A stretch of 64,000 nucleotides of DNA from Streptomyces sp. P9-A2 (GTDB lineage: Bacteria; Actinomycetota; Actinomycetes; Streptomycetales; Streptomycetaceae). The DNA lies in NCBI RefSeq assembly GCF_036634175.1, contig NZ_JAZIFX010000001.1:5952001-6016000 (forward strand), written 5' to 3'. The notes below the pieces were generated by a model, which saw only the letters and a program-made list of their open reading frames with translations, was not told the origin of the DNA and did no database searches. The position numbers and the translations under genes are program-made. Each line of letters begins with the position of its first letter. The first letter of the stretch is position 1. Shown one piece after another: positions 19,966 through 54,851 of this stretch.

Positions 19966-21252
19966 ATGGTGTCAAGGTTCAGCCGACGCGTTAAACAGAG
20001 CGCGCCCGCCTGGAGGCGTCACAGAAGATGGGGTGCTGGCGCCTGCTCAGTACTTGGGGCTGTGGTCATCCTCTCGGCAGGTCTGACGTCCGGTGCAGCA
20101 TCTGCAGACGCCCAGTCGCAGCAGTGGTACCTGTCGGCGATGAAAGTCGATGAGATGTGGAAGGTGAGCACCGGAAAGGGAGTCAAGGTTGCGGTCATCG
20201 ACTCTGGTGTCAACCCTGAAACTCCGTCCCTGAAAGGGCAGGTGCTCGCGGACGAAGTGCCACAAGCTGTCGCTTATGGGGCCACTGATGATTACGATGG
20301 TCATGGCACAACCATGGCGGAACTGATCGCTGGTACCGGCGCGGACGGAGGCATAAAGGGGCTTGCTCCCGGAGCCAGAATCGTACCTTACCGGATTGTT
20401 TTCACCGATGTCCTGAAGGACAAGGCGGAGATAAGCAAGACTCCCAACCCGGCCGAGGCGATCAGAGCCGCTGCTGACAGCGATGCCGAAATCATCAGTA
20501 TGTCGTTTGGTGGCGGTGGCGACTCTGAAACGGAGGCTGCCGTAAAGTATGCCCAATCCAAGGGTAAGCTGATGTTCGCCTCCGTGGGAAATGACGCGGA
20601 AAAGAAGAGCCTCATTGGTTACCCGGCCGCCTATCCCTATGTAGTCGGTGTTGCCGCATCGGATGAGTCCGGGAAAGTCGCGAAGTTCTCGGAGTACGGA
20701 AACTACGTCGACTTGGCAGCTCCTGGACTGGACATGCCTGGCTGGTGCGACGCGACCTTCCGCTCGTATTGCGATCAGGGAGGAACAAGTGCCGCCACCG
20801 CCCTCACCTCCGCCGCTGCTGCCTTGATCTGGTCCGCCCATCCCGACTGGACCGCCAACCAGGTCCTCGCCAGCCTCATCGAGACCGCCGGCCGCAGTTG
20901 GGCCAAGGACGATCCGAGTGTTTACCTCGGCTACGGCCTGATCCGTCCGCGCAGGGTCCTGATGGACGAGGACTTCAAGCCCGGCCCGCCCGACACCGAC
21001 CCGCTCGCCAGGGAGAACGCCATAGGCCTCCTGGACGATTCGGGTAACCCCGTGGTCGCCTCCCCCTCACCGTCGCCCGAGCCCTCGAAGGAACCGGAAA
21101 CGTCGGATGGCGGTGACCAGACATCAACAGCCGCCTCCGACAAGGGGACTTCCGACAACACCACCCTCTGGGTAACCCTCGGAGCCGCAGCGGCGGTCCT
21201 GGTGATCGGGGGCGGCGCCTTCGCCGTGATCCGCTCACGACGACGCGCATAG
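19966..21252 (+). CDS. mycP: Type VII secretion-associated serine protease mycosin, copy 2
   Basis: 428 residues, with a Sec signal peptide (helix AGACSVLGAVVILSAGL, likely cut after ASA at 45-47), an S8 domain with Asp79 (VIDSGVN), His113 (DGHGTTM), Asn209 (SVGND) and Ser275 (GGTSAATA), a Ser/Pro-rich linker, and a C-terminal helix (LWVTLGAAAAVLVIGGGAFAV) ending RSRRRA. The triad is intact. The DNA of the first ~790 bases is clearly lower in GC than the rest of the gene and than mycP1 (hand-counted 60-base lines give 55-57% against 67% near the 3' end), with the change near 20760-20800, suggesting a recombined gene. The start ATG at 19966 has AGGGGA directly before it; AAGGA further up may be the real binding site. 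Confidence 0.92.
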   Translation: MVSRFSRRVKQSAPAWRRHRRWGAGACSVLGAVVILSAGLTSGAASADAQSQQWYLSAMKVDEMWKVSTGKGVKVAVIDSGVNPETPSLKGQVLADEVPQAVAYGATDDYDGHGTTMAELIAGTGADGGIKGLAPGARIVPYRIVFTDVLKDKAEISKTPNPAEAIRAAADSDAEIISMSFGGGGDSETEAAVKYAQSKGKLMFASVGNDAEKKSLIGYPAAYPYVVGVAASDESGKVAKFSEYGNYVDLAAPGLDMPGWCDATFRSYCDQGGTSAATALTSAAAALIWSAHPDWTANQVLASLIETAGRSWAKDDPSVYLGYGLIRPRRVLMDEDFKPGPPDTDPLARENAIGLLDDSGNPVVASPSPSPEPSKEPETSDGGDQTSTAASDKGTSDNTTLWVTLGAAAAVLVIGGGAFAVIRSRRRA

Positions 21253-21354
21253 AAAAGGCGCACACAACAGTCGGCCCCCGGCGCAGCCGACCACCCACCA
21301 CCACGCGGTGCCACACCGCACCGCACCACCGCTCTCACGAAAGGGACTGCCGAC

Positions 21355-21696
21355 ATGGCTGAAGGCCGCAAGCTTTACGAGGCCCAGGTAGAGAAGCTCC
21401 AGACGAACGTCGTCGACCGGTACGACTCGATCAGGCAGTCTCTCGCCCGCCTCCAGGGAACGATCGACATGATCGAGAAGAACTGGACGGGCCAGGGCGC
21501 CATCGCCTTCGACAAGAAGCAGACGGAGATCAACAGCCACATGGCCTCGATCGGCCGCATGCTCGACGACTTCCTCGAGGGCATCCAGCTGAACAAGGCC
21601 GACAAGCGCAAGCTCGAGGACCAGATCGAGGCCGACGTCGCCAAGATCTCGATGGACGACCTCGGCGGAAAGAGCTCGGCACTCAGCAGCTACTGA
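21355..21696 (+). CDS. WXG100 (Esx) protein with WTG turn
   Basis: 113 residues: two helices joined at the Trp44-Thr-Gly turn (EKNWTGQGAIAF), the standard helix-turn-helix hairpin of secreted Esx proteins. There is no signal peptide. It is encoded 49 bases before the second Esx gene, with which it should form a heterodimer secreted by the EccC machine. It lacks a clear C-terminal YxxxD/E signal and ends LGGKSSALSSY. One of this pair corresponds to EsxA and the other to EsxB of S. coelicolor; which is which I do not assign. Such a pair is known to be needed for normal sporulation in S. coelicolor. Confidence 0.92.
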   Translation: MAEGRKLYEAQVEKLQTNVVDRYDSIRQSLARLQGTIDMIEKNWTGQGAIAFDKKQTEINSHMASIGRMLDDFLEGIQLNKADKRKLEDQIEADVAKISMDDLGGKSSALSSY

Positions 21697-21745
21697 CGCG
21701 AGACCCCGAGAACGACCCGCCGGCTCTCAAGGAAACGAGGAAGAC

Positions 21746-22048
21746 ATGTCCGGAGCCCATTACGACGAACTCGCCGTCACCTACGGCACCATGGACGCGC
21801 TCGCCACCGAACTCGGCAACCAGGCCAAGAAGCTCGAGGAGGACCTCGAGGCCCTCAAGAAGGCCGTGCTGGACGCGGCCGCGGGCTGGGGCGGCGAGGC
21901 GTACGAGGAGTTCACCAAGAAGACCAAGGAGTGGGACCGTCACGCTTCCGGCATCCACCAGGCACTGGTCAGCATCGGCCAGCGCGTAGGCACTGCCGGC
22001 GGTGACTACCGCGGCGGCGACCTGAAGGGCGCCAGCTACTTCATGTAG
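21746..22048 (+). CDS. WXG100 (Esx) protein with WGG turn and C-terminal YxxxD motif
   Basis: Exactly 100 residues. The hairpin turn is Trp48-Gly-Gly (AAGWGGEAYEEF). The C-terminal tail contains Tyr88-Arg-Gly-Gly-Asp92, which matches the general YxxxD/E type VII export signal placed after the second helix, as in CFP-10. This protein is therefore likely to carry the export signal for the pair, while the WTG partner is carried along. It has a GGAAACGAGGAAG-type binding region upstream and is followed by a strong terminator, so the esx pair ends this transcription unit. Confidence 0.92.
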   Translation: MSGAHYDELAVTYGTMDALATELGNQAKKLEEDLEALKKAVLDAAAGWGGEAYEEFTKKTKEWDRHASGIHQALVSIGQRVGTAGGDYRGGDLKGASYFM

Positions 22049-22079
22049 GGCAACCGCGCACAGCGCACGCAGAAAGCGA

Positions 22080-22114
22080 ACAGGGTGGACACGCGCGGGA
22101 GGTGTCCACCCTGT
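22080..22114. terminator. Bidirectional terminator between the esx pair and the convergent operon
   Basis: Perfect 13-base arms (22080-22092 with 22102-22114, 9-base loop) lie between the esx gene stop at 22048 and the stop of the leftward gene at 22138. It serves both directions. Confidence 0.9.
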
Positions 22115-22137
22115 CCTCTGTCCACAATCCCGTCTTC

Positions 22138-23226
22138 TCAGCTTTCCGTAAGCGTGACGTCAGGGCAGGAGTACAGGTCGGCCGCAGAGGTGACGAAGGT
22201 GTTGAACGTGTTTCTTTTGACCTTCGGGACCCCATCGTGCTTGTCCGAAAGGGCGCCGGTGTACTCGCTGTTCCAATGAGCAGCGAAGTACACGTCGCCT
22301 TCGGCGCAGTGCAGAACGGCTTGGTCGAAGGAGGCGACACCGTGCCCGTTGGGCAGCTCGTGGAAACCGTAAGTGTCCTGAAGGGCCGCGTCGACCATGT
22401 CCCGGTCCGAGGTCGCGGCGAAGGAGACGGCGGCCCCGGCACTGCCGGCCAGGGTCAGATCGCACGCCCACACGTCCTTCGCGTCCTTGCTGATCTGCTC
22501 CTGATCGGGTTCGGCGACACCGGTGAGCACGGCGTCGTCGGGCAAGGAGAAGCCCGGCAGTCCGCACACCTTCCCGACGTCCGTTGTGCGCACGGCGTCA
22601 GGTGCGGCGAGTTCCGGTGAATCCTTCAGCGCCGGGGTGGTGCATCCGGCGTCCGCGGTGACTTTCCGCGCTACGCGGGTCAGAAGTTGGGCCAGCCCTT
22701 CCGGGTCGGCCTGGCCCTTCGTCACGGTGGCTTCGACGACGGACACACTGTCGCCGTCGGGCGGGACGATGAGGGCTCCCCGTATGTTGCCCACCTTGCC
22801 CCAGCACGACTTCGGCAGGACGACGTAACCCCCGGTAGGGGCCACGGCTCCGCTCGTTTCGCCCTTGAAGTAGGAACGTGCGCCGGGGTTCTTCCACACA
22901 TGAGTGGTGTACGGGAAGGGTCCGTCCTCGTTCGCGGTCGTCAAGGTGACTTGCTGGTCCGTGTCCCCGAGGAAGCGACTGGTGCGCTCGATCACGCACG
23001 TGAATTCTGGCTTGCCGGGGGAGCTTTGCACACGTCCTTCCGAGACCCGGCCCGAGGAATTCAGGGCACCCTGTGCGTCCGCAGACTCCACCCGCTGGTC
23101 GCAGAATGATGCCGACCCCAGCACATTCGTGTTCTGCCACATGTGCGCCGAGACAAGAGTACTGATGGCAACCAGCGTTCCCGCAGCGATGAGCAGTGAC
23201 TTCTTCCTGTGTGGACTGGGAGACAT
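22138..23226 (-). CDS. Membrane-anchored exported protein of cassette 2, unknown function
   Basis: 362 residues. A short basic start (MSPSPHRKK) and one hydrophobic helix (SLLIAAGTLVAISTLVSAHMW) make it an N-terminally anchored extracytoplasmic protein or one with a cleaved signal. The outer domain has many cysteines (for example SFCDQR, FTCVIE, KSCWGK, DAGCTT, KVCGLP, WACDLT, LHCAEG, YSCPD), suggesting several disulfides and a duplicated lobe. It is not a known family to me. I start at ATG 23226, 32 bases after the large WxG gene; the longer open frame overlaps that gene. It is the third and last gene of the operon 26022 to 22138. Its place next to a candidate secreted protein suggests a surface partner or immunity role, which is inference. 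Confidence 0.78.
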   Translation of the reverse strand: MSPSPHRKKSLLIAAGTLVAISTLVSAHMWQNTNVLGSASFCDQRVESADAQGALNSSGRVSEGRVQSSPGKPEFTCVIERTSRFLGDTDQQVTLTTANEDGPFPYTTHVWKNPGARSYFKGETSGAVAPTGGYVVLPKSCWGKVGNIRGALIVPPDGDSVSVVEATVTKGQADPEGLAQLLTRVARKVTADAGCTTPALKDSPELAAPDAVRTTDVGKVCGLPGFSLPDDAVLTGVAEPDQEQISKDAKDVWACDLTLAGSAGAAVSFAATSDRDMVDAALQDTYGFHELPNGHGVASFDQAVLHCAEGDVYFAAHWNSEYTGALSDKHDGVPKVKRNTFNTFVTSAADLYSCPDVTLTES

Positions 23227-23258
23227 GTGTGTATCGATTCCTTGTCTCGGGCTTGGGC

Positions 23259-25529
23259 TCAGCGGGACCGCAGAGCCTCGTACGCGGTCTGCCGTCCGGA
23301 AATATAACTCTGCTGGGCCTCGCCGGCGGCGTCCTCGGCGACCTCTGGGGCCAGGCTTCGTTCCTTGCCCCACCTGTCGAAGTAGCGGTCGATGTTGTCT
23401 TGCGCTACGTCGTTGCTCCGGTTCAATTCCTCCTTTGCCAAGGAACCCTCTTCTGCTTGTACTCCCGCCAGCCAGTTATTGAGAGAGATGTCCACCAGGC
23501 GTTGGGACATGTCTCCTACTATCGGAATATTGGTGATCATGCCGCCACCGATGTGGTAGCCGTAGAACCGTGTATCGGTTGCATCGGAAATCTTGTCGTC
23601 GTGTACGTCCATCTTTACGTCACCGCCGACGGCGTTAAGAGCACCGGTGACTTCGCCATACTTGCGGGCTTCGTTCAGGGCAGCGGTAGCGTTCGGGAAA
23701 TCTTTGTCCATCAGTTGCTCGGACATGTAACCCTGTTGCGCGTGATAAATGCGCTCGAAGTTCTGGATGTCGTCTGCTTCCGATACGCCACGCATCATGC
23801 GTATCAAGCTGCTGCGGCTGTTCTGAATCTGGGAATCCTCGCCATTCTCGTAGATTTCCGCCTCGCCGGCGCGGCCGCCCGGAGCGTCGCCGTTGATGGT
23901 CTCCACAACATCCGGTGAGTAGTCGGCAAGTGCCTGAGAGAGAGGCCCGCGCAAGGCGGCGTAGTCATCACCGGCCAGCAGTTCGTCGGCCTTCCCGGTG
24001 CGCGGCTCCTTCTTGTCCTCACCGAACGTGCCGTCAGCATGTCCGTAGTCCAAGAGGTTGACCGTGGCGTGCATGACACGGGCTTGCGCGGCCGTGTGGC
24101 GACTGAATTCGGTTCCATCGGCTCCCGCCACATTGCCCGTGGCGCCTGCGGCCAGCGCGAGTCCCAGTCCTGCTCGTACATCCTGGTCGAAAGTGTCCTC
24201 ACCCGTCACCTCGACCTTGCCCTGCCAACGAGTGGTGTCGACATGGTTCCAATCCCGCTCCGCGAGCAGGTACGTGAGGTTGCCGTTCTTTCCGTCGGGG
24301 CCTGGGTCGAGATAGCTGATGGTCGTGCTCGGGTCCTTGGCCATGATGCCCAGCACGCCGTCGAGCGGATCATTGGCGAACCAGCCGTCGTCCTTTCCAC
24401 TGAAGCGGCCACTGAGGTCCCATACGTCCGGGTCCCCGCCCTGTTTCTTGTCTTCGACGGCTCGAATGTCGGTGGCCAGGTCCTTGAGGAACTGCCCGGA
24501 GTATCCGTCGCCCGTTTGCATCAGAGTGACCAGGCTCTGGTAGCCACGCACTTGCTGACCGTGTCCGAAACCGACTGAAATTTTCTGGTTGGCGACGTCG
24601 AGATCGAACTTCTGGACACCGACCTTCTGCATGTCGGTGCGGAATTTCTTGTAGAAAGTGGAGTCGGGGTTCTTCGTCGCTGTCGCCAGGGAGCTGGCCA
24701 AGCCCTCCTGAAGACCCGCAAACGTTCCCCTGTCCTTGCCGCCGTGGCTGAGCGTGCTGAGCCGGTTGGTGAGCTTCATGGTCCCCGAAGCACCCAGACC
24801 GCTGAGGAGGGTTTGTGTGAACTCTTTGCTCTTGGCGTTGTCTCGGAACGCGCGGTCCAATTCGGCGAGTTGCGCGGCGGGGACCTTCTCGCCTCCCGCG
24901 ATCCTCGTGGCGATGTTCTCGGCGTTCTCGGCCTCGTACTTCTCGATGTCGCCCTTCGCCCGGCCGTTGAAGCCGTTGAACGTGCCGTCCTGGAGGTCGG
25001 TATCGACGACGACGGCGTTGAAGGCGATCTCGACGCCCTTGTCGGCGTCGGTGACGGCCTTGACGAGCTGGTCGATGCGGTCCTGCCAGGAGCGGACGCT
25101 CTTGCGGACGCTCTCCTGAAAATCGAGGTCGTGGCGGTAGGCGGTGCGTGTGCTCTCGCTGAGCCGTTGGGTGTCATAGGAGACGACGCCTTGCTCGGAC
25201 ACCTTCATGTCGTTGCCGATGGCATCTTGGCGGACCGCCCTGAGCTTGCCGCGGAGGTCGACGAACTGGGTGTGGGCGTCGCGCAGGAGGGAGGCGATGG
25301 CCTTCGCCTCGGTCTGGGCGTTTTGATACTCCGTCAGCGTGGTGTCGAAGCGCCAGTTGGCAGCGTCTGCGCTCAGCCCCAGCCAGGTCTGGCCCATGGA
25401 TATGCCGTGCACGTCCCGCTTGTAGGCCTTCTCCTGCTTGCTGAACTCCTTGGCCATGTCGTCCCAGCCGTCGGCTGCGCTGGTGAGCGTGGCCAGGTCG
25501 GTCGTCATGATCTCGTGGTACGTCGGCAT
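23259..25529 (-). CDS. Large protein with N-terminal WxG hairpin, candidate type VII substrate (cassette 2)
   Basis: 756 residues, no signal peptide. The first ~110 residues form an ESX-like helical hairpin with the turn Trp49-Leu-Gly51 (QTWLGLSADAANW) after the start MPTYHEIMTTDLATL. A long helix to about 190 follows, then a large, mainly helical domain containing GLGASG, NDPLDGVLGIMAKDP, YHAQQGYMSEQL and the tail ISGRQTAYEALRSR. The gene at 29055-31406 encodes a protein of the same layout, length and motifs, so they are paralogues. The catalytic role, if any, is unknown. The DNA has much lower GC than eccC (a 60-base line counted by hand gave 52% against 75%). The start ATG at 25529 lies 52 bases after the preceding small gene. 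Confidence 0.82.
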   Translation of the reverse strand: MPTYHEIMTTDLATLTSAADGWDDMAKEFSKQEKAYKRDVHGISMGQTWLGLSADAANWRFDTTLTEYQNAQTEAKAIASLLRDAHTQFVDLRGKLRAVRQDAIGNDMKVSEQGVVSYDTQRLSESTRTAYRHDLDFQESVRKSVRSWQDRIDQLVKAVTDADKGVEIAFNAVVVDTDLQDGTFNGFNGRAKGDIEKYEAENAENIATRIAGGEKVPAAQLAELDRAFRDNAKSKEFTQTLLSGLGASGTMKLTNRLSTLSHGGKDRGTFAGLQEGLASSLATATKNPDSTFYKKFRTDMQKVGVQKFDLDVANQKISVGFGHGQQVRGYQSLVTLMQTGDGYSGQFLKDLATDIRAVEDKKQGGDPDVWDLSGRFSGKDDGWFANDPLDGVLGIMAKDPSTTISYLDPGPDGKNGNLTYLLAERDWNHVDTTRWQGKVEVTGEDTFDQDVRAGLGLALAAGATGNVAGADGTEFSRHTAAQARVMHATVNLLDYGHADGTFGEDKKEPRTGKADELLAGDDYAALRGPLSQALADYSPDVVETINGDAPGGRAGEAEIYENGEDSQIQNSRSSLIRMMRGVSEADDIQNFERIYHAQQGYMSEQLMDKDFPNATAALNEARKYGEVTGALNAVGGDVKMDVHDDKISDATDTRFYGYHIGGGMITNIPIVGDMSQRLVDISLNNWLAGVQAEEGSLAKEELNRSNDVAQDNIDRYFDRWGKERSLAPEVAEDAAGEAQQSYISGRQTAYEALRSR

Positions 25530-25581
25530 GGGTCCCCGTGGTGCGCGTCGGCGTGAACGGTCGGTGGCGGGAGTGGGCAGC

Positions 25582-26022
25582 TCAGTAGGCGTCCAGGTTG
25601 GACGACTGGCGCACGCCCTGTCCGACGCCGAAGTCGGTGTTCTGGAAAAGGATGTTGGTGCTGCGCAGGGCTTCCTTTTCAGAACTCAGACGGGACATCA
25701 GGTTCTGCACCTGCTCACCCCAGGTCTTGTGCGCCTTCTTCAGCGCCGTGGAGGTGACCCACCCGTGGCCGTCCTTCGCGGCGAAGGCCTTGACCGCGGC
25801 GTTGGTCTCCTCGTCCGCCCAGTCGCCGGCCTTGCGGGTGTCGGGCTCGATGTTCTCCTCGATGGCCTTGGCCGCGGCCTTCTTCTGAGCGGGGCTGGAC
25901 GCCAGGTCCTTCCGGCCACCGCCCACAGGCCCCGGCGAGCTTCCTGGATCCGCCGGGTACTGATTCAGCCGCATACCGACCGGTTGCCCGGCCCCACCGA
26001 CGTTCCCGTACTGCTCCGCCAT
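25582..26022 (-). CDS. Small WG-motif partner protein of cassette 2
   Basis: 146 residues, first gene of the three-gene operon. A Gly/Pro-rich start contains the short motif MRLNQ, then come two helices, the second with KTWGEQVQNLMSRL. The protein at 31425-31901 has the same MRLNQ start and a WGSQV helix in the same relative place, next to the other large WxG gene. The pairing suggests a dedicated Esx-like partner or chaperone for the large protein's N-terminal hairpin. No named family is recognised. The start ATG at 26022 has GAAGG very close to it. Confidence 0.78.
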   Translation of the reverse strand: MAEQYGNVGGAGQPVGMRLNQYPADPGSSPGPVGGGRKDLASSPAQKKAAAKAIEENIEPDTRKAGDWADEETNAAVKAFAAKDGHGWVTSTALKKAHKTWGEQVQNLMSRLSSEKEALRSTNILFQNTDFGVGQGVRQSSNLDAY

Positions 26023-26157
26023 GCCTTCATGTCCCCGTCCACTCGATTGGCGTGCGCCCGACAGGCTAACAACCAGGCCGACTTGTGGATCACAAGGGCG
26101 TTCGTCCGCCGCGACCGTTGCCTGCCATCACCGACCAGGGCAGCACCCGAGCACCCC

Positions 26158-26186
26158 GTCCGTCACGCACTTCGTACGTGACGGAC
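26158..26186 (-). terminator. Terminator hairpin after the lipoprotein gene
   Basis: Perfect 10-base arms (26158-26167 with 26177-26186, 9-base loop) lie between the lipoprotein stop and the start of cassette 2. It separates the lipoprotein gene from the downstream operon, whose promoter must then lie between about 26023 and 26157. Confidence 0.7.
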
Positions 26187-26216
26187 CCACGAGTGACCGC
26201 CCGCACAGGGGCGGCA

Positions 26217-26984
26217 TCAGCCCGCGTTGACCTCCTCACGGAACTCCTCCAGGGGCATGACCTGGCCGGCCTTCGGAAGGACGATGCTGGTCTCCTTGCC
26301 GAAGTCGGTGTACGTCGTGCGGCTTTTGCGCCCGTCGCGCGTCGACTCCATCTTCAGCAGACGAGCAGGGTCCTCCTCACTGATGTAGTAGACGTCCGAA
26401 GTGGACCCCGATGCCGCCGCAACGGCCTGCGCTGGCACTCCCTCGATCTCGGTGTCCTTGTCGGGGGCGAACGTGCCGGGCGGTACGGCGAAGTAGGCAT
26501 CGCATCCCTGCCCGCTCTCAGTGGTCACATAGGTGTCGTCGAGCCGGTCGGGAACGGTGATCTGTACGCCCTTGGACTGCAGGTTCTTCGCCAGCAGATC
26601 CGCACTCATATAGGTCACGCCATCCTTGCAGTACATGTCACCCCCAGTTCCGACGAGCTTGATGTGCAGGCCCTGGGAGGGGTTCCACCGGATCTCCTGC
26701 TGCCCTTCGTCGAAGGCAGTGGTCGTGCCGATGGCGCTGAACGGCGTCTTCCGCATGGTCTCGTTCACCTGCTCGATGCGAGCGTCGGCGGAGGTCTCCC
26801 CGAGCGCCGTACTGCTGGTCGTTGCGGGGGAGGGGGACGTGCTGTGTCCAGCCTCGTCCTTGTCGGAAGCAGGGCTGCAGGCGAGCGCGGTTGTGGCGAG
26901 CAGCGCGGTGAGGGCAAGCGAACGCCGCACTGCACGGGCACGAGTCGACTCCGTGCCCATGTGTGACAGAGGGGTATTGCTCAT
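26217..26984 (-). CDS. Lipoprotein, LprG/LppX-like
   Basis: About 255 residues. A twin-Arg-like basic start (ARAVRRS) and hydrophobic core end in the lipobox TALAC, so the mature protein is lipidated on Cys and sits on the outer face of the membrane. The Ser/Thr-rich linker and the domain with YCKDGVTYMSADLL, DVYYISEEDPARLLKMEST and SRTTYTDFGKETSIVLPKAGQVM resemble the LppX/LprAFG fold of actinobacterial lipoproteins, which bind lipid-like ligands in mycobacteria. The start is uncertain: GTG 26996, ATG 26984 or ATG 26960 are in frame; I chose 26984 because AAGGA lies at a more usable distance. Its upstream side abuts a broken transposase gene. Confidence 0.78.
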   Translation of the reverse strand: MSNTPLSHMGTESTRARAVRRSLALTALLATTALACSPASDKDEAGHSTSPSPATTSSTALGETSADARIEQVNETMRKTPFSAIGTTTAFDEGQQEIRWNPSQGLHIKLVGTGGDMYCKDGVTYMSADLLAKNLQSKGVQITVPDRLDDTYVTTESGQGCDAYFAVPPGTFAPDKDTEIEGVPAQAVAAASGSTSDVYYISEEDPARLLKMESTRDGRKSRTTYTDFGKETSIVLPKAGQVMPLEEFREEVNAG

Positions 26985-27004
26985 CAGTTGAGACACTTCC
27001 TTGA

Positions 27005-27484
27005 ATCATTGAGCTCGTTCACTGTTGCCTCTCCCATTACTCGATCGGCGACGACACCCTGTGGGGCGTCAACCGTCGCCGCAAAGGGGCGGCCAACACC
27101 CTGGCGGCACTGAAGTCGATCCGGGCTGCCCGCCCGGACGGCGCCCCGATCTACGTGATCCTGGATCATCTCTCCGCCCACAAGGGAGTGAAGATCCGCG
27201 CCTGGGCGAAGAAGAACAAGGTCGAGCTGTGCTTCACTCCGACCAACGCCTCCTGGGCGAACCCGATCGAGGCACACTTCGGGCCGCTGCGGCAGTTCAC
27301 CATGGCCAACTCCCACCATGCGAACCACACCGTCCAGACCCGAGCCCTGCACGCCTATTTGCGCTGGCGCAACGTCAATGCCCGCCACCCCGACGTCCTG
27401 GCCGCTCAACGCCGCGAACGCGCCCGCATCCGCAGTGAGAAAGGCCTCCGCTGGGGCGGACGCCCACTCGCTGCCGCGGCGTGA
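27005..27484 (+). pseudogene. IS630-family transposase, 5'-truncated remnant
   Basis: The frame encodes only the C-terminal half of a DDE transposase of the IS630/DDE_3 type: the strand YVILDHLSAHKGV with the second catalytic Asp, then FTPTNASWANPIEAHFGPLR with the final Glu, and the tail RERARIRSEKGLRWGGRPL. The N-terminal helix-turn-helix and the first Asp are missing. Homology seems to start near 27038; an in-frame stop at 27002 closes the frame upstream. No intact terminal repeats are visible. It is a dead fragment marking past insertion in the secretion locus. Confidence 0.85.
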
Positions 27485-27524
27485 CCACCGTGCCGGACAG
27501 CCGGTCACAGCTCAGCGTTATGCC

Positions 27525-28214
27525 GTGAACCTTCCCATCAAGCGGGTGGAACCCGGCGGGCAGGAACCTCGAAGACGAGTTCGCGACCGTCCTCCTCATC
27601 CCACTGCTCTCCGACCTCAACGAAGCCAAAGCCCGAGATCGTGGCCAGGGATGCCACGTTGTCGGGGCTGATCGCCGCCCGCACAGTCGTCACTGCGGTT
27701 TCGGCCGTTGCCCGGCGGAGCAACTCGATCAGCGCGGATCGGGCATATCCCTGACGACGGAAGTCGGGAGCAACGGAGTAGCCGATCTCGACCATGCCGA
27801 CCTCATCAGGCGGTCCGTGGAACCCGGCATGTCCGACGACAAGACCCTTGTCGCCGACGACCGCTTGTCGCACCATCCACCGCGCCTGGCCGGGATCGGC
27901 GGCCATCTGGGCGAGCCGGAACTGCCATAGCCACCGTGCTCTGTCGGTCACGAAGTACTCGGTCAGCGAAACCCCGGCCACCCTGCTGGCTGCGGACAGG
28001 TCACCATCGAGCAAAGCGGACATCGCCCCGCCGGACAGCTCGACAAAACGTACACACTTCGGGCTCCGCGTGAACGGTCCCCAGTAATCGGCTTCATCTG
28101 TCACCTGCGGATGCTCGCCGACTAACCCAAAGGGCGTCCAACGATTTCGAAGCAACCCAACAGCCACTCCGCGACGTCATCTACCACCACGACCCCACCC
28201 CGGTGAACCTTCCC
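27525..28214. repeat. Pair of 12-base direct repeats flanking the acetyltransferase gene
   Basis: GTGAACCTTCCC occurs at 27525-27536 and 28203-28214 in the same orientation, on both sides of the GNAT gene and beside the transposase remnant. They could be relics of insertion-sequence ends or recombination points; chance is possible at this length. Confidence 0.5.
27538..28023 (-). CDS. GNAT-family N-acetyltransferase (RimJ/RimL-like)
   Basis: Cytoplasmic acetyl-CoA-dependent transferase of unknown substrate. The acetyl-CoA binding loop DFRRQGYARSALIELL, the preceding beta strand MVEIGYSVAP and the end ISPDNVASLATISGFGFVEVG are typical. I start at ATG 28023 (161 residues). The frame is open to 28167, and homologues may begin about a dozen residues earlier, but the codon there is GTA and not a start, so this copy may use an upstream start or be slightly trimmed. 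It lies between the transposase remnant and the second accessory cassette, flanked by 12-base direct repeats, so it is probably acquired cargo rather than part of secretion. Confidence 0.82.
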   Translation of the reverse strand: MSALLDGDLSAASRVAGVSLTEYFVTDRARWLWQFRLAQMAADPGQARWMVRQAVVGDKGLVVGHAGFHGPPDEVGMVEIGYSVAPDFRRQGYARSALIELLRRATAETAVTTVRAAISPDNVASLATISGFGFVEVGEQWDEEDGRELVFEVPARRVPPA

Positions 28215-28240
28215 GGCCACAGCACTAGGAAACGTGGTGC

Positions 28241-28420
28241 TCAACGGTCCGCGCGGTGGACGAAGTAGCTCACGACGATGAGTACGCCGAGCACCCCCAC
28301 GCCGAAGACACCGAGGGTCTTCCAGATCCCTTCTCCGCCCACCGCGGAGCGCACCCCGCCAGCGAGCCCGCCAACGGCCATGCAGATGCCCAGTACGAGT
28401 GTCCGTGAACTCTGGAACAC
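28241..28420 (-). CDS. 59-residue membrane protein, unknown function
   Basis: A short frame with GTG start at 28420 and AAGGG seven bases upstream. It encodes two hydrophobic helices (TLVLGICMAVGGLAGGV and TLGVFGVGVLGVLIVVSYFV) separated by a short polar turn (SAVGGEGIWK), ending HRADR, which predicts a two-span hairpin with positively charged ends. It lies 39 bases after the lipoprotein stop on the same strand, so it is likely the last gene of cassette 1. No homologue is recognised. A small membrane partner or immunity factor is possible. Confidence 0.65.
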   Translation of the reverse strand: MFQSSRTLVLGICMAVGGLAGGVRSAVGGEGIWKTLGVFGVGVLGVLIVVSYFVHRADR

Positions 28421-28459
28421 GATCAGCCCTTCGCTTTGCTTTTTAGCCAGTGCTGCTGC

Positions 28460-28975
28460 TCAAGGCTGGCATCCGAGCTTTTTCTTGTAGGCGTCGAAGT
28501 ATGAAGGGACGAGCTTCTCCAACAGGGCTTGCGACTCGTCGTTCCACTTCATGTCCTTGACTTCCAAAGACAGAACGTCGCCCTCCTCACTGACTCCAGG
28601 GCATGGGATCACTGTCGCTACCCCGCGATGCCAGGAGGCGAACTTACCTGCCTCGAAGTAGCGCAGACCTTTTACTTCATAGTCCTGGAAGAGGTCGCGC
28701 AGCTCATATCCACTCTCGTGCCAGTTGCCATCGCTGACAACAGCCTCGTTCCCGTCCACATACATGTGGCAGAACTGTCCTTCTTCCCGCGTGAAGTGCC
28801 CGGTGTCCTGCTTTAGTTCATTGCCATCGTGGAGCAGCGATTCTAGAACGCTCTTGCCTGCGGGAATGCCACAGATATTGTCTGGCACGGGGTATGAGAA
28901 CCCGTCGTCCGACGGGTTGCAGGCGGCGAGGGCGATGGTGAGGAGAGCGACAGTAAGTAGCCTTTTCGGTGGCAA
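28460..28975 (-). CDS. Small lipoprotein of cassette 1
   Basis: About 171 residues. With TTG 28975 as start, preceded by a GGGGGG stretch, the protein begins MPPKRLLTVALLTIALAAC, a textbook lipoprotein signal with Cys19 as the lipidation site. The mature part has FSYPVPDNICGIP, QFCHMY, VIPCPG and a C-terminal KKLGCQP, so three or four cysteines could form disulfides, and DLFQDYEVKGLRYFEAGKF in the middle. The frame is open to 29065 but that would overlap the end of the large WxG gene and bury the signal peptide. It occupies the same place as the anchored protein of cassette 2. No family name is known to me. Confidence 0.78.
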   Translation of the reverse strand: MPPKRLLTVALLTIALAACNPSDDGFSYPVPDNICGIPAGKSVLESLLHDGNELKQDTGHFTREEGQFCHMYVDGNEAVVSDGNWHESGYELRDLFQDYEVKGLRYFEAGKFASWHRGVATVIPCPGVSEEGDVLSLEVKDMKWNDESQALLEKLVPSYFDAYKKKLGCQP

Positions 28976-29054
28976 GGATGGCCCCCCGTTTCTGTTTTCC
29001 GCTCTAGGTACAGGAAGTGGTCTATTGAAGGATGTGGCGAGTGCGGAAGGCGTC

Positions 29055-31406
29055 TCAACCGCCACTTCCAGAGGAGTTCCACTGAGCGCTGTCAGAATGG
29101 CTGACGCCCGCCTGGGTGCGAACTGCTCGTTCGATGGCTTCTCTGGTTTCTATGTCGCTGTCTTCAAGATGCGAGAAGTAAGTGGTGACAGCTACGGCAG
29201 CCGCCTCCGTAGCCGCCTTCCTGCCCTCTGAGTACTCCTTCCCTGCACTCAGTTCAGCCTCGTCTGTCGTGTCCTTGTCGACGCTCTTCAAGACGCTTTC
29301 GGTTACGTCCTCCGCCAGCCAGTTGACCGGTTCCGTCACGATGGAGAAGGGGGCGGGGATGGCTTCCGTGCTGAGGCCCAGGATGCGGTTGACCCACTTG
29401 GCGTTGTCTGCTGCCGCCTCGTTGTATTCCGCGTTCGAGGCCGTGTGGTAGTCGTAGATGGCGTCAGCCCGCGCGTTGCTCATGATTCCCGCGATGGCAG
29501 CCCCCGGCGCGACCAGGTCCCCGACGCGCCCGCCGTCCTCCGAGGTGAGGCTCTTGCCCTCCGCTTTCAGGAACTCCTGCACCACGTTCGCGGTGTATGC
29601 CTGCTGGGCGGAGGTGATGGCGCTGTACGCGTCGGGTTCCTGGCCCACCAGGCCCAGGAACCTTTGCGCGTTGCCGAAATCAAGGTTGGCGGGGGAGCCG
29701 TTGACCGGGAAGGTCTTGCTGTCGGAGCCCTCCAGGTACATCGTCCGCTGGAAGTCGCCGATGTAGTCCGCCGCGATGTTGCCCAGGCTGTCGCGCAGGG
29801 CGTGGAGGGGGCCGGTCTCCGCGTCCTCCAGGTCGCCGTTCATGTTGTGCGTCAGCAGGCCCGGGTTCGTGGCGAACTTCTCCACGATGTCGTGGACCAG
29901 CTTCGCCTGTGCCGTGCTGTGCCTGACCGACGGGTCGATCGTGTCGCTGTTGTACGGGTGCCCTGTCGCGGCGGCCTCGAGGGCGTGGCCCAGAGCGTCC
30001 GGGCCGAAGGCGAGGGCCTTGCTCGTCGCCTCCTCATCCGCCAGGACGTTGGCGGTGTTCCTGTCGATCGGCCACTCGAAGTTCTTGTCCGTGAAGAGAG
30101 CGAGGTAGGACTTGAAGTCCGTCTTGCCCCCGGACTTGACCGTGCCGTCCTCGTTGTACGCCGTGGGCTTCTCCGTGAAGAACCGCTCGGCTGCCTCGGG
30201 GCTGTGCCCAAGTGCCTCCAGAACGCTGTTCAGCGGATCGTTGCCGCTGCCGAGTTTCCCGGAGGGGTTGAACCCGTAGCGGTCGTCGCTGCCGGCGGGC
30301 TTGTTGGACAGGAAGCGGTGAGGGTCGTCCTGGTGGAGTTGGGTGACGTGCTCCGCGATGGGTGCCAGGAACGCCGGATCGTAGTTCCCGTAGCGGAGCA
30401 GGCCGCCCAGGACCTGGTATCCGTAGGGCTTTTTCCACATACCGCGTTCCCACTCGATCTGCTGAGTGCCCAGCTTGCGGAACTCCGCGCCCCACGACGA
30501 GGGCAGGTGCTGCCGGTCCCCTCGAACGCTCTGCGGGGTGTAGGGGTCGGTCGCGTTGGCCAGGGCGTGGCCCATGTACTTCTGCAGGTCCTGTACGCCG
30601 GCCAGGCGGGTCTTCGAGGCGTCCTCACCGGTGCCGTCGATCGACAGGGCGGCGTAGAACTCGAGCGTCTGCCTCGGTCCGCCCAGGCCCTCGAAGAACT
30701 CGGTCGAGAACTCTCCGTCCTTCTCGCGTCCGTTGTGGCGCAGCAGTCGGTTCAGCTCCGCCAGTTCCCGGTCGGTCATGTCCTCGCGCCTCTTGGCGAG
30801 TTCCAGAGCGCGTTCGACCTGTGCGTCGTTGAGGGACCCGTACTTCGCGTGGCCTGCGTTGTACGGGGCGTTCCCGTGCGCCCGTTTGAGGGCCAGCCTG
30901 GTGGAGAGGTCGATGTCGCCGGCACGGGCGATCTTCCGTGTGATGGAGTCGGCGTAGCGCTGCCGCTCCTCCTCGGTGGAGTCCTTGCCGTGCTTGCCGC
31001 CGTTGCCGCCCTTCGCGTCGGCGCCCGACTCGGGCCGGACTCCCACACTCACCGTTCCGTCACCGTTGTCCTGAACGGTGTAACCCTTTTCCCCGGCCTC
31101 GTCGGTGAGCGTCCGGACACTCTTCTGTAGCGTTTCGAGTTCGTGGTGAGCGTCGTCGAGGACCTGGAAGATGCTGTCGGCCTCCGTGCGGAGGTCAGCG
31201 AACTCCTTGGCGGTCTTGTTCACGAACTCCCGTGTGACACCGGCGTTCACGCCTTCCCAGCGTGCGCGGTCGGACTTCTTCTTGAGGCCGTCACGTGCAT
31301 CGGTCTCGAGCTGTTTCAGGTGGGCGACCGCCTTCTTCCAGTCCGACACCGAGGTGCCTAACTTGCCGAGCTCCACCTGCATGAGGTCGTCGTAGGTGAT
31401 GGGCAT
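29055..31406 (-). CDS. Large protein with N-terminal WxG hairpin, candidate type VII substrate (cassette 1)
   Basis: 783 residues, no signal peptide. The start MPITYDDLMQVELGKL and the turn Trp50-Glu-Gly52 (RARWEGVNAGV) match, position for position, the protein encoded at 23259-25529. Helices continue to about 105, followed by a Gly/Lys-rich linker (GGNGGKHGKD) and a large, mostly helical domain with FFEGLGGP, NDPLNSVLEALGHSP, SAQQAYTANVVQEFL, the amphipathic TEPVNWLAEDVTESVLK and the tail GKEYSEGRKAATEAAA. Family: ESX/LXG-like secreted proteins of actinobacteria. Activity is unknown and no nuclease or NADase signature is evident. It starts 18 bases after the small partner gene, in one operon with it. 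Confidence 0.82.
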   Translation of the reverse strand: MPITYDDLMQVELGKLGTSVSDWKKAVAHLKQLETDARDGLKKKSDRARWEGVNAGVTREFVNKTAKEFADLRTEADSIFQVLDDAHHELETLQKSVRTLTDEAGEKGYTVQDNGDGTVSVGVRPESGADAKGGNGGKHGKDSTEEERQRYADSITRKIARAGDIDLSTRLALKRAHGNAPYNAGHAKYGSLNDAQVERALELAKRREDMTDRELAELNRLLRHNGREKDGEFSTEFFEGLGGPRQTLEFYAALSIDGTGEDASKTRLAGVQDLQKYMGHALANATDPYTPQSVRGDRQHLPSSWGAEFRKLGTQQIEWERGMWKKPYGYQVLGGLLRYGNYDPAFLAPIAEHVTQLHQDDPHRFLSNKPAGSDDRYGFNPSGKLGSGNDPLNSVLEALGHSPEAAERFFTEKPTAYNEDGTVKSGGKTDFKSYLALFTDKNFEWPIDRNTANVLADEEATSKALAFGPDALGHALEAAATGHPYNSDTIDPSVRHSTAQAKLVHDIVEKFATNPGLLTHNMNGDLEDAETGPLHALRDSLGNIAADYIGDFQRTMYLEGSDSKTFPVNGSPANLDFGNAQRFLGLVGQEPDAYSAITSAQQAYTANVVQEFLKAEGKSLTSEDGGRVGDLVAPGAAIAGIMSNARADAIYDYHTASNAEYNEAAADNAKWVNRILGLSTEAIPAPFSIVTEPVNWLAEDVTESVLKSVDKDTTDEAELSAGKEYSEGRKAATEAAAVAVTTYFSHLEDSDIETREAIERAVRTQAGVSHSDSAQWNSSGSGG

Positions 31407-31424
31407 GCCTGAGCTTCCCCCGCG

Positions 31425-31901
31425 CTACTCGAAGTATTTGCCGAGCTCCGAAACGGGCATCCCGGAGCCGTCTCTCCGCATGATGACGGCGGCGATCCCG
31501 GCGTCGTCGTCGGCGTGCAGCTTCTTGCTGAAGTCCAGGTGGTTGGAGATGTGGGCACAGGCCTGACGGACCGCCTTCACCTGGCTCCCCCAGACGGTCA
31601 GCGTCGTCATGAGTTCGTCACCCATGGCGAAGCCGGCCCGGGACAGTGCGGACGCCGCCTGGTGGGTGGAGCCGGCGTTGTCGGAGTTCAGGCCGGCACC
31701 GGCGATGTCCACCTTCTTCACGAGGTCACCGTGCAGGACGAAGGCGTCGTGCCCCACGGCACCGAGGTCGTCCTGCCGTACGACCAGGTCCGGCTTGCCG
31801 CCGGGGCCCGGTCCTTGAGCGGGCACCTGGTTCAACCGCATCGGCGTCGACTGCCGGTCGGCGGCCTGAGCCTTCAACTGTTCCCACTCGTCCCATGGCA
31901 T
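31425..31901 (-). CDS. Small WG-motif partner protein of cassette 1
   Basis: 158 residues, ATG at 31901 with GGGAG eight bases upstream. The start MPWDEWEQLKAQAADRQ is followed by PMRLNQVP, a Pro/Gly stretch, then helices with TLTVWGSQVKAVRQACAHI and a C-terminal VIMRRDGSGMPVSELGKYFE. The MRLNQ and WGxQV motifs are shared with the 146-residue protein of cassette 2. The helical region with a central Gly/Asn turn resembles an Esx-type hairpin. The longer open frame to 32153 runs through the repeated DNA upstream and is rejected. It lies 232 bases after eccC on the same strand. Confidence 0.8.
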   Translation of the reverse strand: MPWDEWEQLKAQAADRQSTPMRLNQVPAQGPGPGGKPDLVVRQDDLGAVGHDAFVLHGDLVKKVDIAGAGLNSDNAGSTHQAASALSRAGFAMGDELMTTLTVWGSQVKAVRQACAHISNHLDFSKKLHADDDAGIAAVIMRRDGSGMPVSELGKYFE

Positions 31902-32133: not shown

Positions 32134-35100
32134 TCAGAGCGCCTCCTCCGCAACGAGTCCCGTCTGTACCAACGGTCGCCCCCGCCGCCGGGACACGAAC
32201 ACGCCCCGCCCCGCGGGCATCGGCCGCGGCCGGACCCCGCCCAGGACGTCGCCCTCGGCCGGGTCGCCCGCCAGGACGACGCCCTGGGCGCCCAGCTCCT
32301 TGACGCGCTGCATGAAGGCCTCGTACGAGGCGCGGCTCGCGCCCGCCGTCGAGCGCGCGATGATGAAGCGAACGCCCACGTCCCGGGCGAACGGCAACAG
32401 TTCCGTCAGGCCGCTGAGCGGGTTGCCGCTCGACGTGGCGACGAGGTCGAAGTCGTCGATGACCACGTAGACCATCGGCCCCTGCCACCAGCTGCGCTCC
32501 CGGAGCTGCCGTGCGGTCACGTCGGCGGTGGGATTACGGCGCTTCATCAGATCGGCCAGGGCCGCCATGTGGTGTTCCATGGCGTTGGACATCGGAATGT
32601 ACTCGGCGAGGTGGGAGGCCGGTGTGACGCCCAGCAGGGAGCGTCGGTTGTCCACGACGAACAGCTTGCACTCGTCACCGGGGTAACGCGTCGTCAGCTG
32701 CTTGATCAGCAGGCGGAGCAGGTTCGACTTGCCGGACTCGCTCTCGCCGAAGACGAGGAAGAACGGGTCCTGGTCGAAGTCGACGAAGACGGGTTCCAGG
32801 TTGTTCTCGTCGAGCGCGAAGGCGACGCCGCGCTCCGGAAAACGGTTGCCCGGGGGCAGCTGCTCCGCCGGGAACTCGCGCGGCAGGAGGCGGACCGCGG
32901 GCGCGCCCGGCGCCTGCCAGTGCCGGGAGACCTCGGCCGTCAGCGCGGCGGTGGCGTCCGCCAGGTCCGTGTCGGAGGTCAGGCCGTCGATGCGCGGCAC
33001 CGCCGCCATGAAGTGCAGCTTCTGCGGTGCCTGACCGCGGCCGGGCACCCCGGTGGGGACGTTCGCGGCCACCTTGCGGTCCAGTTCGGAGTCCATCGTG
33101 TCGCCGAGCCGCAGCTCCAGCCGGTTCAGCAGGCTGTCCTTGAGCGCGGACCGCACCTCCATCGAGCGGGAGGCCGACAGGACCAGGTGGACACCGTGGC
33201 CGAGGCCCCGGGCGGCGATGTCGAGGATCACCTGGTCGAGTGCCTCGTAGTCGGCACGGAAGTTCCCCCAGCCGTCGATGACCAGGAAGACGTCGCCCCA
33301 CGGCTGGTCGGTGACCGAGATGTCGCCACGGGCACGCCGGGTCCGGAACTCGGCGATGGACGAGATGCCCGAGGTGCGGAAATACTCCTCACGACGGGTC
33401 AGGATGCCGTAGACCTCCGCGACCGTACGCCGTACCTTCTCCGGGTCCAGTCGCGAGGCGATGCCGCCGACGTGCGGGAGTCCGGCCACCGCGGCCATGC
33501 CGCCACCGCCGAAGTCCAGTCCGTAGAACTGCACCTCGTGGGGCGTGTGGGTGAGTGCGAAGGAGCAGATCAGCGAGCGCAGCAGCGTCGACTTGCCGGA
33601 CTGCGGACCGCCCAGGATCTGCATGTGGCCCGCGGCGCCCGAGAAGTCCACCCACAGCGGGTCGCGGCGCTGCTCGTACGGCTTGTCGACGATGCCGACG
33701 GGGACCACCAGCCGTCCGGCACCCTCGTAGCCGGGTTGGGTGAGACCCCGGCCCTCCACGGCGGTGAGGCCGGGCAGCAGCGCGTCCAGCGACGGCGGGC
33801 TGTCCAGCGGCGGCAGCCACACCTGGTGGGCCGCCGGACCCTGGGCCTCCAGCCGGCGGACGACGACGTCCAGCACGGTGTCCGCCAGCGCGTCGTCCAC
33901 CTCGCCGGCGCCGTCCGCCGAGTCCGCGCCCTGCCGCGGCACCGGCGCGTACCGCACCGGGACCTCGGCCGCCGTGAACAGCACCGGCCGCCGGTCCACC
34001 GGCAGCGGGCCGTCCGCGGACCCGGTCCCCTGCGAGCCGGAACGGTGGACGCCGGAGACGTACGCCGCCTTGAAGCGGACCATCTCGTCGGTGCCGAACT
34101 TCAGGAAGCCGGAGCCGGGCACGTTCGGCAGTCCGTACGCGTCCGGCACGCCCAGTGCCGCGCGCGACTCGGCGGCGGAGAAGGTGCGCAGACCGATGCG
34201 GTACGAGAGGTACGTCTCCAGGCCGCGCAGCCGTCCCTCCTCCAGCCGCTGCGAGGCCAGCAGCAGGTGCACGCCCAGCGACCGGCCGATGCGGCCGATC
34301 TGCACGAACATGTCGATGAAGTCCGGCTTCGCCGTCAGCAGTTCGCTGAACTCGTCGATGACCAGCAGCAGCGAGGGGATGGGCTGGAGCGGTGCGCCCG
34401 CCGCGCGCGCCTTCTCGTAGTCGTGGATGTTGGCGTAGTTGCCCGCGTCGCGCAGCATCTCCTGGCGGCGGTTGAGTTCGCCGCGGATGGAGTCGCCCAT
34501 GCGGTCGACGAGGGTGAGGTCGTCCGCCAGGTTGGTGATCACGGCCGCCACGTGCGGCATCTGCGCCATACCCGCGAAGGTCGCGCCGCCCTTGAAGTCC
34601 GCGAGGACGAAGTTCAGGTTCTCGGAGGAGTGGGTGACCGCGAGCCCCAGCACCAGCGTGCGCAGCAGTTCCGACTTGCCGGAACCCGTGGCGCCCACGC
34701 ACAGACCGTGCGGGCCCATGCCCTCCTGGGCCGCCTCCTTGATGTCGAGCATCACCGGACGGCCGTCCTCGCCGACGCCGATCGGCACCCGCAGCCGTTC
34801 CGCCTGGGACCGCGGCCGCCAGGTGCGCCGGGTGTCGACGGAGGCGGCGTCGCCCAGGTTCAGCAGATCCGTGAACTCCAGGTTCGCCAGCAGCGGTTCG
34901 TCGTCGTCCCCGCCCGAGACCATGCGCAGCGGCGCCAACTGCCGGGCCAGCGCCTCCGCGGACTCGTACGACAGGTCGTCGGGCGTTCCCTCGTAGACGA
35001 CACCGTGCGCCGACTCCAGGCGCAGCGAACGAGGCCGTACGAGGACGGAGAGGTCACCGTGGGCGACGGCCTGCTCGCCCCCGGCCAGCTCGACGACCGT

Positions 35101-49161: not shown

Positions 49162-49195
49162 CGGCCCGTAGGGCAGTCCGTACACGAGAACAGGC

Positions 49196-49231
49196 AGCGG
49201 GGCACCTCGATTTGCATCGGGGCGCCCCGCT
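49196..49231 (+). terminator. Terminator after RNase J gene
   Basis: Outer arms 49196-49203 and 49224-49231 pair perfectly and inner CCTCGAT/ATCGGGG pair with one mismatch, loop TTGC. This separates rnj from the rRNA promoters. Confidence 0.75.
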
Positions 49232-49673
49232 CCAGTACGTTTACACCTCCCACCGACCGGGAACCCCGACTGCTTCACGCATCGGATCCAGTCCCCGGAA
49301 GGTCGGGAAATTCGACTCAGAACTTCTGATAAAGTCGGAGCCGCCGGAAAGGGAAACGCGAAAAGCGGAAACCCGGAAGGCGAAACCCCGAGGAAACCGG
49401 ATCACAAAGATCTGATAGAGTCGGAAACGCAAGACCGAAGGGAAGCGCCCGGAGGAAAGCCCGAGAGGGTGAGTACAAAGGAAGCGTCCGTTCCTTGAGA
49501 ACTCAACAGCGTGCCAAAAATCAACGCCAGATTATGTTGATACCCCGTTCCCGGCCCACGGCCGGGGCGAGGTTCCTTTGAAAAAAACACAGCGAGGACG
49601 CTGTGAACGGCCGGGCCTATTCCGCCCGACCGTTCCGCTCTCGTGCGTGTCCTTCCCGATCACGGGAAAGCAT
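49232..49673 (+). promoter_or_regulatory. rRNA operon promoter region and pre-16S leader
   Basis: 442 bases without a gene. The 15-base element TCTGATA(A/G)AGTCGGA occurs at 49325-49339 and 49411-49425, 86 bases apart; each contains a -10-like hexamer (TAAAGT at 49330-49335, TAGAGT at 49416-49421), consistent with the multiple tandem promoters of Streptomyces rRNA operons. Further on, CCTTGAGAACTCAACAGCG resembles the sequence before 23S (TTTGAGAACT) and may be an antitermination element, and a small hairpin is at about 49589-49606. Confidence 0.7.
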
Positions 49674-54659
<4,986 letters not shown>

Positions 54660-54724
54660 TTGGTTCTGAAACCACGAACGACCCCACGTACTTGGCGTGG
54701 TGCGGTTGTTGTCTGTTTCATAGT

Positions 54725-54843: not shown

Positions 54844-54851
54844 AATTCTTG

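Follow-up and report, generated by a model that had tools for sequence, protein, structure and literature searches.

What does the type VII secretion machine of Streptomyces export? The question is raised by a locus of Streptomyces sp. P9-A2 (genome of 8.39 Mb), which we analysed within a window of 64,000 nucleotides (nt; contig NZ_JAZIFX010000001.1, positions 5,952,001 to 6,016,000, forward strand). The interval between eccC, which encodes the type VII ATPase, and the WXG100 protein genes esxB and esxA (esxBA) holds two cassettes, each consisting of a gene for a small protein, a gene for a large protein and a gene for an exported protein in a common order and on a common strand: small1, large1 and lipo1 in cassette 1, and small2, large2 and exp2 in cassette 2 (Table 1). 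An original prediction, made from the letters of the window, described these as exchangeable cargo units in which the small protein serves as targeting partner and the exported one is a receptor or an immunity factor. We consider it probable, at about two chances in three, that the cassettes are a polymorphic type VII effector system of Streptomyces and that the eccC-esxBA interval is its variable effector slot. Comparison establishes the modularity of the large proteins, the co-tracking of their neighbours, the variation of the slot, a difference in place between matching flanks, a set of motifs and the predicted hairpin of small2; from these we infer a partner-module complex, EccC-dependent export, toxicity and immunity.

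Results

Modularity of the large proteins

In direct comparison, large1 and large2 resemble each other above chance (BLASTP E 6e-16, 25% identity over 443 amino acids, aa). The original prediction had proposed a profile-profile comparison as a check on their relationship, and the result was clear: the class A N-terminal module, to which large1 belongs, matches the class B module of large2 at 99.9% (E 1.6e-33), and the DUF6571-type C-terminal regions match at 100% (E 5e-67). Residues 342-682 of large2 match Pfam DUF6571 (PF20211) with 36 bits against a cut-off of 27; large1, though homologous, has no Pfam DUF6571 match of its own. A Pfam/NCBIfam scan of the window proteins returned only DUF6571 (large2), GNAT and WXG100 (EsxA) above cut-off.

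We fetched 80 neighbourhoods and 80 named loci and kept 161 non-identical large proteins from Streptomyces. Their first ~200 residues are joined to C-terminal regions that fall into seven BLAST clusters: the DUF6571 type (106 proteins), Gly/Ala-rich (25), the WDRYNWD type (22), hydrophobic-helix (3), DUF6973 (2), one further kind (2) and a single hydrolase-like protein, assigned by its resemblance to that of locus L169 alone. Four profile pairs compared among the DUF6571, WDRYNWD and Gly/Ala C-termini revealed no similarity (E >= 0.47). Four of the 80 loci L062-L141 (L062, L069, L112 and L139), with no called large gene, and a 140-aa fragment (L129_4) were dropped; of 83 new large proteins, 8 duplicated earlier sequences, and for 8 of the 161 the hidden Markov model of the small protein gave no match. 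Since genes were called by a simple script, leaders may be shortened and genes missed.

The shared N-terminal module is of the WXG/PPE type. WxG is present in 149 of the 159 large proteins that exceed 400 aa, and the model of large2 (predicted local distance difference test, pLDDT, 83.8; predicted template modelling score 0.83) places long helices (residues 13-44 and 52-105) around the WLG turn at 49-51, followed by two short strands, a third long helix and a mostly helical body. At E<=0.05, Pfam PPE matches 20 of 48 module members (best 4.8e-5) and WXG100 matches 12. The N-terminus of large2 reaches 16.6 bits with PPE, against a cut-off of 26, and two relatives with a DUF6973 payload, L088 and L089, reach 29.1 and 27.0 bits with WXG100, for which the cut-off is 27.3. 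LXG (PF04740) matched none of the window proteins at E<=1 and was not among the matches listed (25 of 47 families) for the 48 N-termini. Searched against PDB sequences, the N-terminal alignment found EsxB as its best match at E 0.34, too weak to stand alone.

Payloads with recognisable domains occur on this module or on distant versions of it. DUF6973 follows it in L088 and L089 (2e-27 and 1.4e-27), and an Abhydrolase_8 payload occupies the eccC-esxBA slot of three genomes (6.5e-33, 1.1e-29 and 3.5e-30). The hydrolase-payload proteins have a distant N-terminus (36-39 bits) with LKG replacing WxG; gene calling placed a matching small gene upstream of the large gene in L143 and L146, and in L146 and L169 the gene that directly follows encodes a lipoprotein. 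The L088 protein has an additional weak wnt match (0.0062), which suggests a Wnt/lipocone-like payload (compare PMC12419801, the accessible text of which does not give DUF6973 by name). L253 and L261 share a two-member payload kind with a GLGLG-containing C-terminus, again on the common module. The DUF6571 payload matches no solved fold: its alignment had 0 matches in a profile search of PDB sequences, and the fold search with large2 returned generic HEAT-type matches only. The region has few conserved polar residues. The alignment of WDRYNWD payloads matched designed TIM barrels, a result that we judged spurious.

Tracking of partner and payload

The class of the N-terminal module agrees with that of the small protein in 150 of 153 cases, on part of which the class models had been trained. 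Agreement in held-out loci was 69 of 70; class B accounts for 65 of these, since the alignment used for scanning was itself of that class. Partial Mantel tests within three payload groups (n = 96, 20 and 25) separated the two ends of the large protein. The small protein correlates with the N-terminus, given the C-terminus, at 0.83, 0.87 and 0.90, and with the C-terminus, given the N-terminus, at 0.26, 0.14 and 0.09; for the downstream protein, the values are 0.79, 0.89 and 0.71 with the C-terminus, given the N-terminus, and -0.35, -0.31 and 0.23 with the N-terminus, given the C-terminus. Neither main value was reached in any of 500 permutations. Judged by these correlations, each neighbour varies with one end of the large protein and little with the other: the small protein goes with the N-terminus, the downstream protein with the C-terminus.

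Among the 161 large proteins no downstream cluster is common to two C-terminal clusters, and a single downstream family accompanies the Gly/Ala (25/25), WDRYNWD (22/22) and hydrophobic-helix (3/3) payloads. The kind of payload is also a guide to the location of the downstream protein: a lipobox or hydrophobic leader is found in 84 of 103 proteins following DUF6571, in 22 of 22 following WDRYNWD and in 0 of 25 following Gly/Ala payloads. In Gly/Ala cassettes (e.g. L063 3136-5750 and L084 5094-7532), the large gene is followed by genes for a leaderless LPVPIEFRLPDGW protein, which may resemble PsbP/Mog1-type adaptors, and a MGLFDKLTGT protein.

Because pairwise BLASTP shows almost nothing for the exported and the small proteins, family profiles were needed for both. 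Pairwise, lipo1 and exp2 have no similarity. Their families, D2 and D5, match each other directly at 70.9% and are linked through D4 (D2-D4 96.9%, D4-D5 96.2%), which also links to D8 and D9, of two members each; of the families accompanying DUF6571 payloads, D6 was not linked to the others by profile. From these links, although the direct one reaches only 70.9% and D6 stands apart, lipo1 and exp2 probably share an origin. The proposal that the exported protein is a receptor or an immunity factor holds up in one respect, its tracking of the C-terminal payload rather than the N-terminus. For the payload-specific downstream protein, immunity is the reading that we prefer.

The small partner proteins

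The claimed likeness of the two small proteins fails in pairwise comparison, where they have only MRLNQ in common (E 0.01), and becomes visible between family profiles, which match at 99.4% (E 2e-20) for class A and class B. Single-linkage clustering placed 83 of 85 upstream small proteins in one cluster. The model of small2 is a two-helix hairpin (helices 44-80 and 90-139; block pLDDT 78-91 over residues 41-130), and 17 of the best 50 rows of its fold search are type VII WXG100, PE or Esx structures; hairpins being generic, this fold alone does not fix membership of the WXG100, PE or Lap families.

WXG100 proteins have a pattern in their C-terminal helix whose YxxxD/E core is reportedly indispensable for type VII activity (PMC3935865). 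Small2 has such an export pattern, FQNTDFGVGQGV, and small1 an HxxxD pattern, HADDDAGIAAVI. In class B, [hydrophobic]xxxD/ExxhxxxH occurs in 75 of 109 small proteins against 0.5% in shuffles. Class A meets the pattern in altered form only, its first residue being hydrophobic in 5 of 44 proteins and His in 35 of 44.

The tails of the small proteins also recall the Esx proteins. The tail pattern S-x-hydrophobic-x-x-[YFLMW], which small2 carries as SSNLDAY, is present in 33 of 34 EsxA and 74 of 101 class B proteins and in 0 of 43 class A proteins, compared with 0 of 152 downstream, 1 of 132 large and 10 of 658 other proteins. Nine of 11 background matches to the EsxA-type and class A tail patterns read as EsxA or as small proteins missed by the filter; the other two, L104_2 and L129_1, were recognised by reading as neither. 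As members of a family are not independent, the class B result amounts to a resemblance between two conserved tails. A position-weight score of the EsxA tail separates class B from background (Mann-Whitney p 1e-40); that only 1 of 101 proteins lies beyond the 99th percentile is probably due to the presence of EsxA proteins in the background. Class A tails (VSELGKYFE in small1) resemble those of EsxB by eye and have a mean score above background (p 3.7e-9), with no protein exceeding the 99th percentile of background in this comparison; we treat the resemblance as a lead. The small-protein alignment found 4lws_A as its best match in a profile search of PDB sequences (E 0.052, too weak alone), and the small and N-terminal profiles had no convincing match to EsxA or EsxB profiles (best probability 7.3%). 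The proposed role of targeting partner thus gains indirect support: the small protein tracks the N-terminal module, small2 is predicted to form a hairpin, and the export pattern is found in many members of the family, in class B together with an EsxA-like tail.

Variation and spread of the slot

The original prediction had called for a comparison of this interval across Streptomyces genomes. In 42 slots (those of the window, of L102 and of 40 fetched pieces, taken for the most part from the nearest of 123 eccC-positive genomes rather than at random), there are 0 large genes in 24, 1 in 16 and 2 in 2. Between constant eccC and esxBA, the contents range over class A or class B DUF6571 proteins, Gly/Ala or hydrolase payloads, kinase-like genes and remnants. 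Within the same interval, L154, L160 and L168 are filled by pairs of ~700-aa genes with Ser/Thr kinase-like N-termini. L162 and L156 have no intact large gene but retain a short stretch of DUF6571 type, an exported gene of family D5 or both, as would be expected for orphan immunity remnants.

A difference in place is seen against S. viridosporus (L197). By blastn, the window matches it at 85.6% over 24743-26080, which covers small2 and the beginning of large2, and at 89.7% over 21001-22115 (esxBA), so that flanks of 86-90% enclose a block, comprising the C-terminal part of large2 and exp2, that has no match longer than 100 nt. The small proteins are 84% identical, the N-termini 86%, the C-termini 42% and the exported proteins 31%. 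The C-terminus in this pair is thus strongly diverged DUF6571. L190 repeats the pattern of matching flanks with a differing C-terminus and exported gene, and an unrelated C-terminal kind occurs on N-termini at most 75% identical to that of large2 (L242). Streptomyces sp. DH41 and CB02400 have the closest relatives of cassette 2, with identities of 89-90%. In both, the large2 cassette adjoins eccC (in CB02400 with a lipoprotein gene between), and the order of cassettes differs from that of the window. Varying number and kind, the difference between matching flanks and changed order together give good support to the description of the cassettes as exchangeable cargo units.

Matches at E<=1e-5 were found in at least 94 of 150 Streptomyces genomes for large2 and at least 95 of 150 for large1, many over the first ~200 residues only; these are lower bounds, as the best 7 or 6 candidates per genome were scored. 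Cassette relatives occur on 21 plasmid records of Streptomyces and [Kitasatospora]. Among 346 genomes of the phylum, the N-terminal module was found in 10, of which 7 belong to the same genus and 3, with weak matches, to another family. This eccC is present in 95 of 98 cassette-bearing and 28 of 52 cassette-less genomes (Fisher p 1.6e-10, for genomes that are related and not independent).

Other features of the locus

The gene positions, lengths, order and strand and the MRLNQ, WGSQV, WGEQV, WEG and WLG motifs that had been described were all recovered from the open reading frames (ORFs). Pfam matches of neighbouring genes to FtsK_SpoIIIE (1.3e-81), EccD (1e-89), WXG100 (9.5e-15) and subtilase (9e-49) identify a type VII locus. 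The cassette ORFs have a GC content of 0.57-0.69 (for small1, that of its longer ORF) and eccC one of 0.71, confirming the lower value described for the cassettes.

A 59-residue membrane protein had been counted as a member of cassette 1, which was not borne out: its ORF has matches in 0 of 200 related loci. It shares an inter-cassette stretch of ~2.4 kb with a GNAT gene and an IS630-type transposase remnant, where L197 has a gap of ~0.2 kb, and for these reasons it looks like part of an insert rather than of cassette 1. The GNAT gene, also with matches in 0 of 200 loci, was rejected as a cassette member. An extra lipoprotein gene, which has relatives in 8 of 200 loci, precedes small2 and is possibly an accessory of cassette 2 or an older protective gene.

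Beyond esxA, L145 (1911-3185) and its equivalents in L146, L147 and L150 encode WXG100-like proteins of 424-429 aa (for L145, Pfam WXG100 26.9 bits and LXG 17.2 bits), possibly another substrate family. Elsewhere in the window, GC drops to 0.57-0.60 and skew changes over 48000-56000, ending near tRNA-Thr (55736-55810); this region resembles an integrated element.

Table 1. Positions of the cassette genes, their neighbours and payload proteins in other loci
Feature	Sequence	Position	Strand	Description
small1	window	31425-31901	-	158 aa, class A partner; WDEWE...MRLNQ, linker, WGSQV
large1	window	29055-31406	-	783 aa; class A WXG-type N-terminus ~1-200 (WEG 50-52), DUF6571-type C-terminal region
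lipo1	window	28460-28975	-	Lipobox IALAAC; exported protein of cassette 1, family D2; ORF reaches 29065 (28460-29065), start 28975 likelier
small2	window	25582-26022	-	146 aa, class B partner; MRLNQ, WGEQV
large2	window	23259-25529	-	756 aa; class B WXG/PPE-like 1-200 (WLG 49-51), DUF6571 C-terminal region
exp2	window	22138-23226	-	362 aa, membrane-anchored, Cys-containing; exported protein of cassette 2, family D5; ORF reaches 23373 (22138-23373), start 23226 likelier
eccC	window	32134-36111	-	Type VII ATPase; one flank of slot, outside cassettes
esxB	window	21746-22048	+	WXG100 protein; opposite flank of slot; tail GASYFM
esxA	window	21355-21696	+	WXG100 protein; tail SSALSSY, resembled by class B small tails
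Non-matching block	window	22116-24742	-	C-terminal part of large2 and exp2; compared with S. viridosporus L197
59-residue membrane ORF	window	28241-28420		Inter-cassette stretch
GNAT gene	window	27538-28167		Inter-cassette stretch
IS630-type transposase remnant	window	27155-27484	+	DDE_3 4.5e-8
Extra lipoprotein	window	26217-26996	-	Upstream of small2
Hydrolase payload protein	L143	11508-13313		Abhydrolase_8
Hydrolase payload protein	L146	11752-13548		Abhydrolase_8
Hydrolase payload protein	L169	1208-3019		Abhydrolase_8
DUF6973 payload protein	L088	4396-5658		On N-terminal module
DUF6973 payload protein	L089	4359-5615		On N-terminal module

Discussion

Our model of the effector system proposes that a small helical-hairpin partner with an export motif pairs with the WXG-type module in the first ~200 residues of the large substrate, forming a pre-secretion complex in which one chain supplies WxG and the other contributes the D/E motif and its tail. 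This complex is proposed by analogy with the LXG-Lap (PMC9600955) and PE-PPE (PMC11217815) pairs. EccC would recognise partner and module jointly, leading to export, and the exchangeable payload, the remainder of the large protein, would have its effect outside the producer, on neighbouring cells. The payload-specific protein, which in both window cassettes would be tethered outside the membrane, may protect the producer. New payloads could arrive by recombination near residues 200-260, bringing their protective gene with them.

Other explanations account for parts of these observations. The large proteins might be secreted, non-toxic identity or adhesion factors of hyphae, with the tethered protein as their receptor and variation arising through self/non-self recognition; the helical DUF6571 payload, with no recognisable enzyme fold, and the co-tracking of payload and downstream protein would fit this, as would the link of Streptomyces ESX to sporulation and development (PMC8401907), which any toxin reading must accommodate. 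We nonetheless consider it unlikely, since the slot of three genomes holds an alpha/beta hydrolase payload, accompanied in two of them by a small protein from the family described here, and the N-terminal module elsewhere carries DUF6973; such payloads look like a weapon repertoire, not one recognition system. That the large helical proteins are instead accessories of the machine, which like EspB or PPE proteins would extend the type VII channel or the cell envelope and would be anchored by the lipoprotein, is suggested by their place beside eccC and esxBA, the PPE matches of the module and the helical model of large2. This is improbable, however, as in 13 of the 42 genomes eccC and esxBA are kept while the space that separates them, 653 nt or less in the piece fetched, is too short for a large gene, and replacement of part of the protein by unrelated domains would hardly be tolerable in a structural component.

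The cassettes could also be unrelated to the secretion machine and merely have come to rest in a recombination hot spot, for which one might cite their lower GC, the transposase remnant, the many homologues distant from eccC and the plasmid-borne relatives. The co-occurrence with this eccC, the WXG/PPE-type N-terminus, and the EsxA-like tail and export motif make such hitch-hiking highly improbable. The effector system is the reading that we favour. A bolder version of it, which we offer tentatively and with more doubt than belief, is that Streptomyces uses type VII secretion chiefly as a weapon for kin discrimination, in which WXG-type effectors with swappable payloads form a family spanning the genus, the dedicated MRLNQ partner of each effector reaches EccC through a tail that mimics the EsxA tail, DUF6571 is a new class of all-helical extracytoplasmic toxin countered by tethered Cys-containing proteins, and the developmental phenotypes of ESX are indirect.

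Akin to the toxin-immunity cassettes of other bacteria, these cassettes suggest what the Streptomyces type VII machine exports. A search of titles and the starts of abstracts found no description of Streptomyces type VII effectors of this kind, or of type VII exports of Streptomyces besides EsxA and EsxB; exported alarmone synthetases have been reported, one headed as type VII-associated (PMC12691689). No paper naming DUF6571 was found among open-licence papers, and the Pfam entry gives no function. The tracking of partner with N-terminus and of downstream protein with C-terminus yields clear predictions of binding pairs, and modular candidate substrates with defined partners make it possible to test the EccC-dependent cargo, its use against neighbours and the role of DUF6571.

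Several known systems resemble this one. Like the type VII WXG polymorphic toxins (Zhang et al. 2012, PMC3482391), the cassettes combine a WXG-type N-terminus with exchangeable C-termini and linked, putatively protective genes; the accessible part of that account does not mention DUF6571, a dedicated MRLNQ partner or the eccC-esxBA slot. As in the PE/PPE heterodimers of T7SSa (PMC11217815), a large WxG protein lies beside a smaller hairpin protein with an export motif, but the Streptomyces cassettes differ in having modular, unrelated C-termini and payload-specific downstream genes. The LXG toxins of the T7SSb of Bacillota, with their partners Lap1 and Lap2 (PMC9600955), have a layout like the one proposed here, with an N-terminal helical targeting module, one or more adjacent and dedicated small helical partners, an FxxxD-type motif in the partner, a variable C-terminus and a protective gene downstream. 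Unlike that system, the window has an actinobacterial machine with an EccC-type FtsK_SpoIIIE ATPase, EccD and a subtilase, the N-terminus is of the WXG/PPE type, and in place of two shorter Laps there is one partner of ~120-180 aa, composed of an MRLNQ region, a linker and, in class B, an EsxA-like tail.
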